25,909 bases of DNA from a virus, in IMG/VR virus record IMGVR_UViG_3300044730_001452, positions 1 through 25,909 of that record; one strand, 5' to 3'. The position numbers and the translations under genes were made by a program. Below, one piece after another: positions 2,719 through 15,711 of this stretch; position 1 is the stretch's first letter; every line of letters starts with the position of its first letter. A model generated the notes under the pieces. That model was given only the letters and a program-made list of their open reading frames with translations. It was not told the DNA's origin and made no database searches.

Positions 2719-3762
2719 TTAGTCCTGGGGGAGGCAACAGACGCGGAAACCGACGTTGACGTTGCGGTTGTCCGGGTGGTCGTTGCCGCGGCAAGCCGAG
2801 CGGCAGTTCCTCGGGACGTCGTACCACGACCCGCCGCGCAGCAGGCGGTTGGCATCAGAGGCAACAGACGCGGAAACCACTGCAGCCGAGGCGGGTGCCC
2901 GGGTGGTTGTAGTCGCGGTAAGCCGAGCGGCAGTTCCTGGCGAAGCTGAGCCACGACCCGCCGCGCAGCAGGCGGCGGCTGGGCACTCCCCCAGGCTGTC
3001 GCCCTCCATCCAGGCATTGCCATCCGTCGGGGCCCACTCGTAGCCGTCGTGCCATTGATCGAGGCACCACTCCCAGACATTGCCGTGCATGTCATGCAGG
3101 CCCCAGGCATTGGGCGGGAAGCTGGCTACATCGATGGTCTGCTGGCGGTAGATGCCTTTCGAGCCCTGGCCATAGATGTAATTACCGTCGTAATTTGCCA
3201 CGTCCGTGCTGATCGTGGGCTCAAAATGAAACGGCGTGGTAGTGCCAGCGCGGCAGGCGTACTCCCACTGGGCTTCGCTGGGCAGGGTGTAATTCTTGCC
3301 GGTGCGTTGGCTGAGGCGATGGCAAAATTCCATTGCATCTAGCCAGCTCACCTGCTCCACTGGGCGATTGTCGCCCTTGAATCTCGAGGGATCGGGCTTC
3401 AGGTCGAGATTGATTTTTGGCCAACTCGCAACCTCCCGCCACTGTGCCTGGGTTATCGGTGTCCGGGCCATCCAGAAGGCGGCCAGTGTTACTTCGTGCT
3501 GGGGGCCTTCGGTTTTTGATCGGTGAGGCTCGTGCTCGGGAGAACCCATCAAGAAGCTGCCAGCAGGAATAAACGCCAGCGGGATTAGGTCTGCTACTGA
3601 GGGCTTGGCTGCTGCAGTTGCTGGGGGCTGATAATCGGCGTCAATTTTCACCAGCTCGGCCAGTGCGTCGGTAGCGCTAGCAAATAGGGCCCGATCGTTT
3701 TGGGCTCGGATAAACCGCACAGCAAACTCAAAGCCGGCGCGGCTGGAATTAATGGTGGTCAT
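2719..3762 (-). CDS. FGE/sulfatase-modifying-factor fold protein with DGR-type variable C-terminus
   Basis: A 347-residue protein. After about 55 helical residues comes an FGE-sulfatase domain: FIPAGSFLMGSPEHE (about 64-78), HEVTLAAFWMARTPITQAQW (about 88-107), a PVEQVSWLDAMEFCHRLS block, LPSEAQWEYACRAGT, and MHGNVWEWCLDQW. This C-lectin-like fold is used by known DGR target proteins. The C-terminus is RLLRGGSW, then variable residues, NCRSA, variable residues, GFRVCC. Human FGE places its active-site Cys pair in the GGSYMC...YC region; here the first is missing, so catalysis is unlikely and ligand binding more probable. A second copy of the same C-terminal module lies inside the gene (2975-2858) but is read out of frame, giving an Ala/Thr/Ser-rich insert of about 42 residues. 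The ATG at 3762 overlaps the previous stop (ATGA). Confidence 0.85.
   Translation of the reverse strand: MTTINSSRAGFEFAVRFIRAQNDRALFASATDALAELVKIDADYQPPATAAAKPSVADLIPLAFIPAGSFLMGSPEHEPHRSKTEGPQHEVTLAAFWMARTPITQAQWREVASWPKINLDLKPDPSRFKGDNRPVEQVSWLDAMEFCHRLSQRTGKNYTLPSEAQWEYACRAGTTTPFHFEPTISTDVANYDGNYIYGQGSKGIYRQQTIDVASFPPNAWGLHDMHGNVWEWCLDQWHDGYEWAPTDGNAWMEGDSLGECPAAACCAAGRGSASPGTAARLTATTTTRAPASAAVVSASVASDANRLLRGGSWYDVPRNCRSACRGNDHPDNRNVNVGFRVCCLPQD
2731..2848 (-). repeat. DGR-type variable repeat A (distal, in frame)
   Basis: A 118-bp module encoding RLLRGGSW-xxxx-RNCRSA-x-R-xxxHP-xx-R-xxxx-GFRVCCL in the frame of the FGE-fold protein. Compared with copy B it has the same length with no indels and differs at 21 bases. 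All 21 fall in 14 codons and all are amino-acid changing; 19 are at codon positions 1 or 2. Most variable codons end in C (TAC, GAC, GTC, AAC, GGC), as expected if they derive from AAC codons of a template repeat by adenine-specific mutagenesis. No template with AAC at these sites is in the window. Confidence 0.85.
2858..2975 (-). repeat. DGR-type variable repeat B (proximal, out of frame)
   Basis: The second 118-bp copy, starting 127 bp from copy A. Because 127 is 3n+1, it is read in a different frame from the FGE domain and from copy A. In its own frame it encodes RLLRGGSW-LSFA-RNCRSA-Y-R-DYNHP-GT-R-LGCS-GFRVCCL followed directly by TGA. Variable codons again mostly end in C. One extra G in the G5 run just upstream (plus-strand C5 at 2988-2992) would fuse it to the FGE domain. 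Neither copy is A-rich at the differing sites, so neither is a template repeat. Confidence 0.8.
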
Positions 3763-4767: not shown

Positions 4768-5417
4768 GGCTGCACCCCCAGCGCCCGCAGGATCGCGGTG
4801 CGCTCGTCTGCGCGGCCACGGTTGTAGAGGGCGCGGCGTGCCTCGCCATCCGTGCAGGGACGGATCCACACATAGGACAGCTCCTCATCGGTCGCCACCG
4901 GATCGGCGCCAGGCGGCGGGATCTGGAGGGATTGGGCCTGCTGCTGCCGGGCCCAGGCGATGGCCAATCGAGCCATGGTGGTGGAAGCGTTTATGTGATA
5001 GCCGCTGGCGGTGTGCACGCGACAGGATTTCTCCACCCATTGCTCCATCAGCTCGTCGCTCGGCATCTCAGCCGGGGCCGGGGCCGCTGCAGCGGCGTCC
5101 AATATCTCCGCTGGCATTACCGGCAGATCAGCCAGGTCATCTGGTAGGACGGGTGGGACTGGGCCAGGATCGCGGTCGCTATAGATCAGTCGCCCACCAG
5201 TGGGCTGGGGTTTGGCGGGGGGGACAGCCGGGGCCGCCGGCTTGCTACCTGGCACGGGAGGATTGGAACCACGGCGGCGAGCGATCTCGCGGTCAAGATG
5301 CCGGTTGATTGCGGCAGCAGTTTTTGGCGGTGGGGTAGTCAGCCACTCATCGAATGACAGCGGGGTGTTGGAACCACGGCGGCCCAGCCCCTTGATCAAC
5401 CGTTGCAACCAGTTCAC
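4764..5417 (-). CDS. Hypothetical protein with Pro/Ala-rich linker
   Basis: A 217-residue protein starting with GTG at 5417 in a GTGA overlap with the upstream stop. The basic N-terminus (WLQRLIKGLGRRG) is followed by a short block with FDEWLTTPPPKTAAAI, a Pro/Ala linker (about 55-120), and a better-ordered C-terminal block (about 122-217) with MEQWVEKSCRVH, a helix MARLAIAWARQQQAQ, and a basic end DERTAILRALG. No known domain is recognised. The order suggests two small domains joined by a flexible linker. Confidence 0.7.
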   Translation of the reverse strand: MNWLQRLIKGLGRRGSNTPLSFDEWLTTPPPKTAAAINRHLDREIARRRGSNPPVPGSKPAAPAVPPAKPQPTGGRLIYSDRDPGPVPPVLPDDLADLPVMPAEILDAAAAAPAPAEMPSDELMEQWVEKSCRVHTASGYHINASTTMARLAIAWARQQQAQSLQIPPPGADPVATDEELSYVWIRPCTDGEARRALYNRGRADERTAILRALGVQP

Positions 5418-11378: not shown

Positions 11379-11410
11379 AAAAAAAGAGGGGCCCATCCCG
11401 GCCCCCTTCC
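11379..11410 (-). terminator. Intrinsic terminator of the leftward gene ending at 11428
   Basis: On the minus strand the gene's stop is followed by AGGGGGCC-GGGAT-GGGCCCCT and then C plus seven T. The stem has seven of eight pairs and a strong U-run, a classical rho-independent terminator. It sits a few bases beyond the convergent rightward gene's stop at 11374. Confidence 0.75.
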
Positions 11411-11427
11411 AATCCTCTTGAGTATTC

Positions 11428-11985
11428 TTACCCAACCGGTTCGACTTGGCGATCCCATGTGCTCGCAAGCTGACCATTGGTCAGCGCTTCCCGAGCCTCT
11501 TGCAACATCTCAAGCGCAACGCCAAGGGCCATCATGCTGCGGCGATCACCTGCCCGCTGGGTTCGCAGCTTCAGTTGCTCAACCTTGCGGCTGGCCTCCA
11601 CCACCGACCCCACCGCTTCCTGCACTTCACGGGTCATCGGGTCATAGTGCTCAACGACTGGCGCTATCGCCTGCGTCACCGGCCGCACCGATGCCACCCG
11701 CGTCTCCGGTTGGGCGCTTGGCACCACCCTCACCACTTTGATCAGCTTGCTGGCCTGGTGCTCTCGCCATTGCTCAGCAGCTACCGGGTCACGCCATTCA
11801 AACGCCGGGTGCAGTGGCGCCTCTTCGGGGCGGGCTTCATCGACTACCGCCGCAGGCTTGATCGTGCCATCACGGCGGCGAATGCGGTCTAGTTCGCTGC
11901 CAGCCGTCTGGGCATCAATGCCTAGTACCTCATCGCCATCTTCGATCTTGAAAGTGAATTCGGGTTGAGCTTTGGTGAAATTCAT
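11428..11985 (-). CDS. Conserved phage protein of unknown function
   Basis: A 185-residue protein starting at ATG 11985; longer in-frame starts would run into the non-coding repeat tract and are rejected. The N-terminus MNFTKAQPEFTFKIEDGDEV is followed by AGSELDRIRRRDGTIKPAAV, VDEARPEEAPLHPAFEWRDP, and VAAEQWREHQASKLIKVVRV. This DEAR...PLH..FEW pattern is one I recall from a widespread, unnamed family of phage proteins in which a short acidic domain precedes a helix ending in the QAR-L-I motif. The C-terminal helix (VEQLKLRTQRAGDRRSMMAL) is basic. The gene follows the repeat tract and ends at a terminator. Confidence 0.75.
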   Translation of the reverse strand: MNFTKAQPEFTFKIEDGDEVLGIDAQTAGSELDRIRRRDGTIKPAAVVDEARPEEAPLHPAFEWRDPVAAEQWREHQASKLIKVVRVVPSAQPETRVASVRPVTQAIAPVVEHYDPMTREVQEAVGSVVEASRKVEQLKLRTQRAGDRRSMMALGVALEMLQEAREALTNGQLASTWDRQVEPVG

Positions 11986-12057
11986 TTGATCAGTGGATAA
12001 AGGGAATGAGGGGGCCCATTCAAGCCCCCATTCTGCTGCCATTTGGCATCTGCAACA

Positions 12058-12785
12058 ACGCCGGCAATGCCTTGCGGTGCCTTGCGCCGTCAATCCAGGC
12101 CACGCCTGCCGAGCAATGCCGTGCAACACCGTGGGCCGTCAAGCCAGGCCACGCCTGCCCTTCCTTTCCTTGCCATGCCTTACAAACCAGTCCTAGCCAT
12201 GCCCGCAATGCCGTGCCTCTCCAGTCCACGCCGTGCCTTGCCGGTCCTGCGGAGCCAATCCCGGCCTACCGAGCCATACCTGCCTTGCGTTACCAATCGC
12301 TGCCTTGCCTAACCATGCCTGCCGTGCCATGCCGTTCCTCGAACGCGCCTGGCCTCGCCACACCGTGCCTGCAATACCACGCGGAGCCATACCGGTCCAC
12401 ACCACGCCTGCCAATCTGATCCTGGCCCATCCATCGCTGCCTCACCTGCCACGCCTGACCTGGCAATGCCCAGCCTCGCCTGCAATGCAAGTCCAGTCCT
12501 GGCCACGCTCCTACACGCCTAGCCTGCCGCGCCTGTTCATGGCTCTCCGTGCCTTGCCTTGCCTGCATCGCCGTACCTTGCACTATCCCGACCACGCCTA
12601 GCCAGCCATACCTGAACAGGTCGTGACTTGCGAAGCCATGCCTGCCCTTCCGGGCCAACCTGACCGTGCCACGCCTGCCAATCCATACCACGCCCTTTCG
12701 TGCGGAGCCTTGCCTAACCGGCCATGCCAGCAAAACCTTGGGACGCCGCGCCTTGCCTATCCGGCCATGCCAGGCCCTGGTAGCC
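12058..12785 (-). repeat. Long non-coding tract of degenerate GGNNN repeats
   Basis: About 730 bp are made almost entirely of TGCC/CGCC-type units on the plus strand, which read on the minus strand as GG runs spaced mostly 5 nt apart (AGGCAAGGC, GGCAGGCGTGGC, GGTATGGAT). Frequent words on the plus strand are CCATGCC, GCCTTGCC, CCGTGCC and CCACGCCTGCC. A 25-bp segment recurs with one mismatch at 12086-12110 and 12135-12159. Open frames on both strands are only low-complexity readings of the repeat. It lies between two leftward genes, so it is probably transcribed as a G-rich RNA, with (GGN3)4 runs such as GGCAAGGCAAGGCACGG. Confidence 0.8.
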
Positions 12786-12790
12786 GTAAA

Positions 12791-12798
12791 GCGATCGC
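12791..12798. repeat. HIP1 octamer
   Basis: GCGATCGC, the highly iterated palindrome of many cyanobacterial chromosomes. Two more copies are at 20297-20304 and 24335-24342. The low density suits a phage or recently acquired segment rather than a typical HIP1-rich chromosome. Confidence 0.6.
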
Positions 12799-12816
12799 CA
12801 GGGCCATGATCAATCA

Positions 12817-13464
12817 TCAGACGATCTCGAACAGGCCGAAGCCCAGACCCGCGCTGTTTTTGCTGTCCGGTCGCCCCTCGCCGATACCAACCTGAAGACC
12901 TACTCGACTGATCAGGTTAACCAAATCGGCCGAGGTAAACATCCCGGCGTCGTACCGGATTCTTAAGTTTGCCGCCCACTCTCGATACATCGGACGGCAG
13001 CGTAGATCAATTACACCCGTGGCGTTCCGAGTAGGGGCTGTCCATTCCTCTGCTTTCCCCTCCGTCAGCCGGACCAAAGGGGCACCGTCAACCCGATCGA
13101 AGCCATCGGCGTACACACTGAACGCCAATTTGGCGTGGGTCATTTTGACCCCGACGGTGCGACAGGCAGAAATGGCGCCGTTCCTGAATGCGGCGGCATG
13201 GATGCCCTCCCATCCTTCCCCCGCGACGTGTTTGGCGCTTTCAAAAAGAGCGGCAAAATCCTTTGCCTCGCGCACCTTCTTGCCTCTGGCGGTGCTGCCC
13301 GCTTCCTGCGTGGCTCGCATCTGCTCCATGGCTTTTGCGCTGAAGCGATTGATCACCAATGGGCTGGTGCCTCTAATCTTGATCTCAATGAGCCTGAAGT
13401 CCGGGGCCTTGATGGTGATTGCCTCTTCTGGTGCCTGGGTTTTAGCCTTGGTGGTGGTTGCCAT
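12817..13464 (-). CDS. Conserved phage protein of the SPLVINRFS...GVGExRP type
   Basis: A 215-residue protein starting at ATG 13464, preceded by GAACGCCACC; a longer in-frame start at 13803 only reads antisense to the divergent gene. After a basic tail and IKAPDFRLIEIKIRGTSPLV comes INRFSAKAMEQM, a middle with HVAGEGWEGIHAAAFRNGAI, and the end has MYREWAANLRIRYDAGMFT, LVNLISRVGLQVGIGEGRPD and GLGFGLFEI. I recall this pattern from a broad family of phage proteins of unknown function found near recombination genes. The layout of strands and the Gly-rich end could suit a Cas7/RAMP-like fold, but that is speculation. Confidence 0.75.
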   Translation of the reverse strand: MATTTKAKTQAPEEAITIKAPDFRLIEIKIRGTSPLVINRFSAKAMEQMRATQEAGSTARGKKVREAKDFAALFESAKHVAGEGWEGIHAAAFRNGAISACRTVGVKMTHAKLAFSVYADGFDRVDGAPLVRLTEGKAEEWTAPTRNATGVIDLRCRPMYREWAANLRIRYDAGMFTSADLVNLISRVGLQVGIGEGRPDSKNSAGLGFGLFEIV

Positions 13465-13576
13465 GGTGGCGTTCTCAATGATGAAGTTTGGAGATTTGTG
13501 CCGTGCCTGCCGCTGGCCGTAAGCCGTTGCGGTCTTGAAATGGTATCGTACGTAGGGCAATACGAAACCACCACCG
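13465..13576. promoter_or_regulatory. Divergent intergenic region
   Basis: These 112 bp separate a leftward gene (start 13464) and a rightward gene (start 13577), so both need a promoter here. I see TACGAT-like hexamers near 13545 but no convincing -35/-10 pair on either strand. The rightward gene has the leader CGAAACCACCACCG directly before its ATG. Confidence 0.35.
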
Positions 13577-14773
13577 ATGACCACCGCCAAGGCCACGGCA
13601 AAAGCCAGGACCAAGACTGCCGCAACCGCCGAGCTTCCCCTAGCCGTCACAACTGAGGCCGTCCCCCAGGAAACCGACGCCACCGCCACCGCCCCAGACG
13701 GCGCCATTGTCCCAGCCGGTGAAACCACCGCGATCTCCCGGTGGGAAGCCCTGGCTTTCAGGATCGCAGAAGCCGAAGAGAAGGCGCCCGCTAAGAAGTT
13801 CAACTACCGGGACGAATGGGACAACAAGGCGGCCCGTTCCTGGGTGCATGAATTGCGGGGCATCAAGGGTTCGATAGAGCGCTGCAGGAAGGAGGCTAAG
13901 GCCGTTCACCTAGAGCGTGGTAGGGCTGTAGACGACAACGCCAAGCTGCTGGAGTCCGCCGTTCAAGGGCTGATTGAGCCCCACGAAACGGCGATCAAGG
14001 CCATTGAAGCTGAAGAGCAAGCCCGCATCGACGCCCACCGCGCCGTGCTCGACCGCATCGCCGTCTTGGCTGATGCCGCTGGGGCAGAAGGGGGAGACGG
14101 CATCATTGATGTTGACGCCAGGCTGGCAGAACTGGCAGCGATCGATACCAGCACCCTCGAAGAGTTTGCACAGGCCGGCCTGAACCGCCAGGCCGAAGCC
14201 ATTGAGCAACTGGGGCTGCTGCGGGACAAACTGGAAGCCCAGGAGGCCCAACGCATCGAGCTAGAAGCCCTGCGGGCGCAGGCCGCCGCCCGCGAGGATG
14301 CCGACCGCATTGCGCGACTGCAGCAGGAAGCGGTAGAGGCCGACCGGCTGGCCCGTGAGGTGGAAGCGGTAGCCCGTGTTGCCGAAGCCGAAGAGCGGGC
14401 ACGCAAGGAACGGGAGGATGCCGCTACCAGGGAGGCCCAGGTCCTGGCCCAGGTGGAAGCAGCACGCATTGCACAAGAGGCTGCCGAGCGCCGACTTGCG
14501 GAAGAGGTTGAAGCCAGGAAAGCGCAGGCTGCCGCAGAAGCTGAACGGTTGGAACGTGAGGCTAAAGAGGCCAGGGATGCCGCTGCCCTGCGAGACGCTG
14601 CCATTGCCAAGCAGCGCGAGCTACGCGCAAGCCTCGTGGTCGAGCTGGCCGAGGCGCTGGCCACCATGATTTCCGAAACCGCTGCTACTGCCATTGTCGA
14701 TGGCACGCTGCACCCAGCGGTTCAAATTGATTGGGCACTGGTTTTTCCATCAGATGACTTCTGTCCGTTTTGA
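13577..14773 (+). CDS. Long coiled-coil phage protein
   Basis: A 398-residue protein starting at ATG 13577. The Ala/Thr/Lys-rich N-terminus (about 1-50) is disordered. Residues about 65-130 form a distinct part: KKFNYRDEWDNKAARSWVHE, LRGIKGSIERCRKEAKAVHL. The rest, to about 360, is a continuous charged coiled coil full of Ala, Glu and Arg (AREDADRIARLQQEAVEADR). A short hydrophobic/acidic end (WALVFPSDDFCPF) closes it. It resembles the DUF1351-like coiled-coil proteins that accompany annealing proteins in phage genomes, but I cannot assign it firmly. Confidence 0.75.
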   Translation: MTTAKATAKARTKTAATAELPLAVTTEAVPQETDATATAPDGAIVPAGETTAISRWEALAFRIAEAEEKAPAKKFNYRDEWDNKAARSWVHELRGIKGSIERCRKEAKAVHLERGRAVDDNAKLLESAVQGLIEPHETAIKAIEAEEQARIDAHRAVLDRIAVLADAAGAEGGDGIIDVDARLAELAAIDTSTLEEFAQAGLNRQAEAIEQLGLLRDKLEAQEAQRIELEALRAQAAAREDADRIARLQQEAVEADRLAREVEAVARVAEAEERARKEREDAATREAQVLAQVEAARIAQEAAERRLAEEVEARKAQAAAEAERLEREAKEARDAAALRDAAIAKQRELRASLVVELAEALATMISETAATAIVDGTLHPAVQIDWALVFPSDDFCPF

Positions 14774-14807: not shown

Positions 14808-15188
14808 ATGCTCACCTGTCCCCATTGCGGCGTCGCAATCCGCGATCAACCGCCCACCAGTCCCGACGACCAACCACTGGACAACGAATCCGCTCGCCAG
14901 TTGCAGCGCATTGAGGCCGAACTGGCGCGGGTGTGGGCTGCGATACAACCGCAGCCTGCCCCGGTGCCAATCGAAGACCTGAAGCTATCAACGCGGGCTA
15001 ACAACGCTCTGAAGCGCAAAGGGGTTAACACTCTGGCCACGTTGCTCACCTACAGCAGCTTCGATTTGCTGGATATTCGCAACTTTGGCGGCATCTCACT
15101 AGGCGAAGTGCATCTGGCCTTGCATCTGCGAGGCTTGGAGTTGCGGAAGGAGCGACTGCTGCCACGGACTGGACGGGCTCGCAGTTGA
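14808..15188 (+). CDS. RNA polymerase alpha-CTD-like protein with N-terminal Cys knuckle (copy 1)
   Basis: A 126-residue protein starting at ATG 14808 after the leader CACCACCACCGCCC; an in-frame ATG at 14754 would add 18 residues. It begins MLTCPHCGVA, a single zinc-knuckle half-site, then a helical linker (ARQLQRIEAELARVWAAI). Residues about 58-112 match the alpha-subunit C-terminal domain: IEDLKLSTRANNALKRKGVN, LATLLTYSSFDLLDIRNFGG, ISLGEVHLALHLRGLEL. The Arg equivalent to E. coli R265 (TRANNAL), the Asn of N268 and the Ser of S299 are kept; K298 is replaced. The fold normally binds UP-element DNA and activators. The host alpha NTD is absent, so this is a free-standing regulator or mimic. 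Confidence 0.8.
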   Translation: MLTCPHCGVAIRDQPPTSPDDQPLDNESARQLQRIEAELARVWAAIQPQPAPVPIEDLKLSTRANNALKRKGVNTLATLLTYSSFDLLDIRNFGGISLGEVHLALHLRGLELRKERLLPRTGRARS

Positions 15189-15219
15189 TTACTTAACCAG
15201 ATAGCCACCACCGATTGCT

Positions 15220-15711
15220 ATGTTCCCCTGCCCTAACCCCAACTGCAAAGGCTTTGAGCGGCAAGTGCTGGAGACTCGTTATGAGCCTAGTCGCGCTGCT
15301 ATCCGCCGCCGCTGCATCTGCAAAACTTGCAGATTTACCTTCACCACGGAGGAGAAAGTTCGGATCGCCAAGAAAGAGCAACGGCCAATTACGGGCGCAT
15401 CAGATCAGCCGTTGGTGCCCATCACACTGGAAGCCCGACTGGATGGCATCGAAACGGAGCTGGCAGCAGTCCGGATGGAAATAGCCCAGGCACCACCACC
15501 AGTCCCTGTGCCTATCCAAGAGCTTGAACTTGGCGCGTACGCCTACGGCTCGCTGAAGCGGCAAGGGATCACCACTGTTGACGACCTGGTCAAACTCTCA
15601 GACGCGGACCTGTTGAGCTTGCGCAACTTTGGCCATCAATCGTTGAACGACGTTCGTGTGGCCTTGGCGTTGCGGGGACTGGCCCTGCGCCGGGAGCGGG
15701 CTAGCCCATAG
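15220..15711 (+). CDS. NrdR-type zinc ribbon fused to an RNA polymerase alpha-CTD-like domain (copy 2)
   Basis: A 163-residue protein starting at ATG 15220, preceded by GCCACCACCGATTGC. The N-terminus follows the NrdR zinc-ribbon pattern: FPCPNPNCKGFERQVLETRY, then AAIRRRCICKTCRFTFTTEE, with paired Cys (CPNPNC and CKTC). The ATP-cone that normally follows in NrdR is missing. After a helical linker (LDGIETELAAVRMEIAQ) comes an alpha-CTD domain (about 100-155): IQELELGAYAYGSLKRQGIT, VDDLVKLSDADLLSLRNFGH, QSLNDVRVALALRGLAL. The position of E. coli R265 is Tyr here, so classical UP-element contact is unlikely, while S299 is kept. It looks like a paralogue of the preceding gene. The stop is TAG. 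Confidence 0.85.
   Translation: MFPCPNPNCKGFERQVLETRYEPSRAAIRRRCICKTCRFTFTTEEKVRIAKKEQRPITGASDQPLVPITLEARLDGIETELAAVRMEIAQAPPPVPVPIQELELGAYAYGSLKRQGITTVDDLVKLSDADLLSLRNFGHQSLNDVRVALALRGLALRRERASP

Follow-up and report, generated by a model that had tools for sequence, protein, structure and literature searches.

The question raised by this locus is why a phage would carry two consecutive genes for small proteins ending in the C-terminal domain of the RNA polymerase alpha subunit (alpha-CTD), and what such domains might do apart from the polymerase. Both genes lie on the plus strand of the window, the 25,909-nucleotide stretch of the IMG/VR virus record IMGVR_UViG_3300044730_001452 analysed here. 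P1 (14808..15188, 126 aa) is composed, from N- to C-terminus, of a CPHCG N-terminus, a heptad helix, a Pro-rich linker, and an alpha-CTD; P2 (15220..15711, 163 aa), which follows after a spacing of 31 nt, has an NrdR-type zinc ribbon followed by the same series of helix, Pro-rich linker, and alpha-CTD. P1 is present in eight IMG/VR contigs and P2 in six, at ~87-94% identity, with seven distinct P1 proteins sharing a conserved start and five distinct P2 proteins. Both are considered genuine genes because the pooled dN/dS (0.28 for P1, 0.21 for P2) indicates purifying selection, the constraint being strongest at the Cys-rich N-termini (0.09 for P1 residues 1-25, 0.15 for the P2 ribbon) and in the P2 alpha-CTD (0.13). 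A search near the pair revealed no sigma-70-like promoter. The pair shares its region of the window with genes for Rad52, an SSB-like protein, and RusA. The RusA gene is separated from a gene at 12817-13803 by a GC-rich, internally repetitive stretch (11400-12820) that has low-complexity ORFs on both strands and may not be normal coding sequence.

The earlier note had described both genes as ending in an alpha-CTD, and had named other helix-hairpin-helix (HhH) families as the fold that a structural comparison might reveal in its place. The comparisons support the alpha-CTD. The Pfam profile PF03118 (RNA_pol_A_CTD) matches P1 with an E-value of 4.7e-15 and P2 with 1.1e-15 (55.5 and 57.6 bits, against a curated cut-off of 23.8) and nothing else in the window, and phmmer searches with both proteins against PDB sequences return solely RNA polymerase alpha subunits below E 0.01. 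In AF2 models, built on shallow alignments of 12 sequences, the alpha-CTD blocks reach a pLDDT of 91-96 in P1 and 89-95 in P2, and their best structural matches are solved alpha-CTDs, with an rmsd of 0.4-1.4 A over ~60 residues (Foldseek, VIA-align). The P1 domain (residues 52-113; 14961..15146) superimposes on these at 0.4-0.9 A over 60-62 columns in Foldseek, sharing 54% identity with the alpha-CTD of Synechococcus elongatus (9dvt), and the P2 domain (residues 96-158; 15505..15693) superimposes on the E. coli alpha-CTD with a Z of 12.9 and 1.2 A over 64 residues in a VIA-align table that covers the alpha-CTD only. Judged by sequence and predicted structure, both C-termini are true RNA polymerase alpha-CTDs and not members of another HhH family. 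The alpha-NTD is absent from both proteins, and NCBIfam rpoA models match their C-terminal part only, far under the cut-off.

Within this shared fold, the two proteins differ in the face with which an alpha-CTD grips DNA. The contrast that the earlier note drew between R265 in the first copy and Tyr in the second is fixed among the relatives: the R265 position (E. coli numbering) is Arg in 7/7 distinct P1 proteins (R63 in the window, 14994-14996) and Tyr in 5/5 P2 proteins (Y107, 15538-15540). The N268 position is Asn or Gly among the P1 copies and Gly in all P2 copies (G110). P2 keeps the hairpin residues N294, G296, and S299 as well as the acidic 259/261 face, K298 is altered in both proteins, and E261 is altered in P1. 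Going by these residues, P1 could bind DNA via its alpha-CTD, while the alpha-CTD of P2 probably does not, though P2 alone carries the NrdR-type DNA-binding ribbon. This difference between the DNA faces of the two domains is the strongest functional clue at the locus.

Two further features, absent from the earlier note, connect the proteins to each other. Each contains a predicted coiled-coil helix, at residues 26-48 in P1 (14883..14951; core L32, I35, L39, V42, I46) and at residues 69-90 in P2 (15424..15489; core L70, L74, I77, L81, V84, I88), with AF2 placing the helices at 26-45 and 70-90, respectively. The 3-4 hydrophobic register beats that of shuffled sequences (p 0.003 for P1, p 0.002 for P2), L32, I35, L39, and V42 of P1 are invariant across the P1 and P2 proteins, and a Pro-rich linker follows the helix in both. 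Moreover, P1 and P2 share 46% identity across 115 aa, a homology that extends beyond the alpha-CTD and, because it spans the heptad helix, identifies them as duplicates rather than independent fusions.

The N-termini of the duplicates have diverged. The CPHCG motif of P1 (C4, H6, C7; 14817..14831) is identical in all P1 proteins, and P1 has no Cys beyond C4 and C7, nor does it fit the zinc-knuckle pattern CX2CX4HX4C. With a single CPHC and no other Cys pair, P1 is therefore not the zinc knuckle that had been suggested for it, and it is not a full ribbon either; its CxxC could contribute to a four-Cys zinc site only if two chains came together. The companion suggestion for P2, an NrdR-type ribbon without the ATP-cone, has held up. 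The ribbon occupies residues 4-45 (15229..15354), with C4, C9, C34, and C37 as candidate zinc ligands. PF22811 (Zn_ribbon_NrdR) scores 28.8 bits in a six-frame search, above its cut-off of 27.2, and 26.6 bits (5.8e-6, residues 7-45) against the whole protein, just under it. The NrdR model TIGR00244 matches residues 7-49 only (4e-4), and P2 7-48 aligns without gaps to solved NrdR chains. In the NrdR of S. coelicolor, D15 and R17 are found at the bases, with R12, R26-29, and R37 on the backbone (PMC9110341). With an offset of 3, E18/R20 and R29-R31 of P2 align to D15/R17 and R26-R28 of NrdR, C32 stands at the fourth NrdR Arg, and T40 at R37; at position 15, four of the five P2 proteins have Arg, the exception being the window copy with Gln. 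By this alignment, most of the NrdR DNA-contact residues are kept in P2, namely the base-reading acid/Arg pair and the first three arginines of the cluster of four. NrdR and P2 are thus alike in having an N-terminal zinc ribbon with an acid/Arg reading pair and an Arg cluster, but both Cys pairs of NrdR are CX2C where P2 has CX4C and then CX2C, and the ATP-cone that follows the ribbon in NrdR is replaced in P2 by the coil and the alpha-CTD. The AF2 model of P2 residues 1-50 is of low confidence (block pLDDT 52-72), and the phage contigs contain no NrdR-box-like sites above chance.

The context of the pair is provided by its relatives. One of them, G005 (66,886 bp), is regarded as a nearly whole permuted or circular genome because its collinear match to the window runs over its own contig ends. 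G005 encodes the terminase, portal, and capsid of a tailed phage, and its top-ranked terminase matches are those of the cyanophages S-CRES3, S-CBS2, S-CRES2, PSS2, and S-CRES1. A sigma factor gene is present in each of the five longer relatives (G001-G005), the window ending ahead of that gene; in G005, it lies directly downstream of terL, the order also seen in S-CRES3, S-CBS2, and PSS2. Owing to the terminase matches and this position of the sigma gene, the phage is placed by sequence among the cyanosiphoviruses related to S-CBS2, S-CRES, and PSS2. In the view of those who described the PSS2 genome, its sigma factors modulate the host polymerase (PMC2784084). The sigma gene of G005 (26740-27828) encodes 363 aa with a long extra N-terminal region, against ~205-245 aa for the sigma proteins of S-CBS2, S-CRES, and PSS2, and is recognised by PHROGs, not by Pfam. 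In S-CBS2, S-CRES1, S-CRES3, and PSS2, a search for alpha-CTDs found none.

Elsewhere in the window, on the minus strand, an FGE-sulfatase-like gene (2719-3762; PF03781) has a duplicated C-terminal coding region (2731-2848 and 2858-2975, 118 nt each, 82% identical). The differences between the copies are clustered inside while the ends are constant, which recalls the variable regions of diversity-generating retroelements; there is no clear restriction of the differences to adenines, and searches of the window and the relatives yielded no reverse transcriptase.

The observed domain make-up, the homology of the two genes, the purifying selection, the residue pattern, the cyanophage setting, and the sigma gene in the relatives can be brought together in one explanation, which is held tentatively and, as a whole, with somewhat less than even confidence: P1 and P2 would be dimeric, portable pairs of alpha-CTDs that steer the host polymerase by tethering or mimicking it at promoters of the phage or the host. 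A tandem duplication would have given rise to two phage transcription regulators, in which the short coiled coil takes the dimeriser role of the alpha-NTD and the Pro-rich linker holds two alpha-CTDs the way RNA polymerase does. The putative zinc-binding ribbon of P2 would carry its alpha-CTD pair to specific DNA, where the domain, lacking the R265/N268 grip on the minor groove while keeping its hairpin and acidic 259/261 face, would contact a protein partner at the promoter, candidates being sigma region 4 or an activator that binds the alpha-CTD. P1, with R265, would itself bind the AT-rich minor groove as a surrogate for, or competitor of, the UP-element contact. The outcome would be that the host polymerase, probably carrying the phage sigma factor, is steered to phage genes or off host genes. 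Counting against this explanation, P2 is missing from G004 and from G005, which is near-complete and has P1, so that P2 is dispensable within the clade, and alpha-CTD-like domains are also found in proteins such as PglW that have no known action on polymerase. The low confidence of the ribbon model and the negative searches for a sigma-70-like promoter near the genes and for NrdR-box-like sites above chance weigh on the same side. A bolder version, rather improbable as it stands, would see in the pair a miniature, in two parts, of the apparatus by which the polymerase grips promoters. P2 would be a dimeric zinc-ribbon factor whose alpha-CTD no longer binds DNA and contacts proteins, and P1 a dimeric alpha-CTD with its grip on DNA retained; as homo- or heterodimers, the two would provide alpha-CTDs in trans to host polymerase with phage sigma.

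The same residue pattern would also fit a decoy role, with free alpha-CTDs acting as dominant negatives, with P1 occupying UP-element DNA and P2 sequestering host activators such as RpaA so that host promoters are shut. The R265/N268 face, kept in P1 (N268 in some copies) and lost in P2, suits such a division of labour, as does the solved complex of RpaA with the S. elongatus alpha-CTD (9dvt) with which P1 shares 54% identity. Yet a ribbon with conserved NrdR DNA-contact residues would be needless in a decoy, and with K298 and E261 changed, the partner faces of P1 are not plain copies of those of the host. Both models fit, and the portable alpha-CTD pairs are preferred to decoys, which we consider unlikely, because the ribbon is conserved.

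The ribbon itself invites another reading, that P2 replaces the host NrdR by binding NrdR boxes at the host reductase promoters, displacing the repressor and recruiting polymerase via its alpha-CTD, so that more dNTP is made available to a phage lacking a reductase of its own. The matching contact residues (E18/R20 and R29-31) are in its favour, and the distribution of ribonucleotide reductase makes it attractive, since S-CBS2, S-CRES1, S-CRES3, and PSS2 each encode the enzyme and none is seen in near-complete G005 or in the rest of the clade's contigs. The search behind this comparison was repeated with the annotated class II reductase of S-CBS2 as query, as PF02867 misses that protein. The association is not established, however, as G005 is without both P2 and a reductase and the contigs bearing P2 are partial, and with the fourth Arg changed to Cys and R37 to Thr in P2, an NrdR replacement is the least probable of the readings considered. 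The alpha-CTD could, finally, serve phage DNA metabolism solely as a generic HhH module for binding nucleic acid or protein, independently of RNA polymerase, which would agree with the CTD-like domain in PglW of BREX systems and with the Rad52, SSB-like, and RusA genes of the region. Sequence and fold are nonetheless nearest to true alpha-CTDs (up to the 54% identity noted above) rather than to generic HhH families, and the polymerase-type hairpin is retained, making a role unconnected with the polymerase improbable. The analysis suggests that the two genes may be a compact phage route to redirect host gene expression.

The statement that no described system has this form needs qualifying. A description of an NrdR-type ribbon/alpha-CTD fusion was not found in the open-access literature, P2 has no match among INPHARED phages, and no relatives of P2 were found among 84,980 species (one genome each), a weak kind of evidence because such pattern-based scans catch close relatives only; phage alpha-CTDs, when aligned broadly, diverge too much for the alignment to serve as a scan query. 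Stand-alone alpha-CTD proteins and NrdR-like ribbons of phages, by contrast, already exist in the databases, and what appears to be new is their fusion. Annotated examples are c00050 of Bacillus phage Goe8 (210 aa) and gp26 of Microbacterium phage Mazun (141 aa), which, like P1 and P2, are small phage proteins ending in an alpha-CTD without an alpha-NTD, but which, unlike them, have no zinc ribbon at the N-terminus and no diverged tandem partner adjoining. BFVD holds alpha-CTD entries from uncultured Caudovirales phages, Mycobacterium phage Mithril, and Rhodococcus phage Finch, and as some entries of 130-140 aa align beyond the alpha-CTD, a similar architecture may already be there, unnoticed. 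The IMG/VR phage L033 encodes a 112-aa coiled-coil and alpha-CTD protein (4860-5198) with no cysteines and no zinc part. Most phage matches of P1 and of an alpha-CTD consensus (unannotated, with Listeria, Staphylococcus, Enterococcus, or faecal names) are likely bacterial rpoA contamination, and two plasmid matches that were inspected are full alpha subunits, not stand-alone alpha-CTDs. For the ribbon, S-CRES1 (OQ587939.1) has an unannotated 68-aa NrdR-type ribbon without an ATP-cone (1501-1707; 54.6 bits), whose LESR motif resembles LETR of P2 in a protein without an alpha-CTD, and BFVD includes an NrdR-like zinc-ribbon protein of Achromobacter phage Motura.

If portable alpha-CTD pairs are the correct explanation, transcription could be redirected by an alpha-CTD supplied in trans, and the uncharacterised stand-alone alpha-CTD proteins of phages would gain a first testable function. 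Several known systems offer points of comparison. An analogy in action is offered by Ogr/Delta of P2-like phages, zinc proteins that activate phage transcription through the alpha-CTD, Ogr binding that of the host; P1 and P2 have no Ogr_Delta Pfam match at E up to 1, and the likeness would be one of working principle, the alpha-CTD here belonging to the phage protein itself. With the RNA polymerase alpha subunit, the two share sequence, fold, and the RNFG hairpin of PF03118, with R265 in P1, but they have a predicted coiled-coil dimeriser where the polymerase subunit has the alpha-NTD. Phages are otherwise known to modify, cleave, or bind the host alpha subunit, whereas this phage encodes alpha-CTDs of its own, probably dimerisable and in one case fused to an NrdR-type ribbon.
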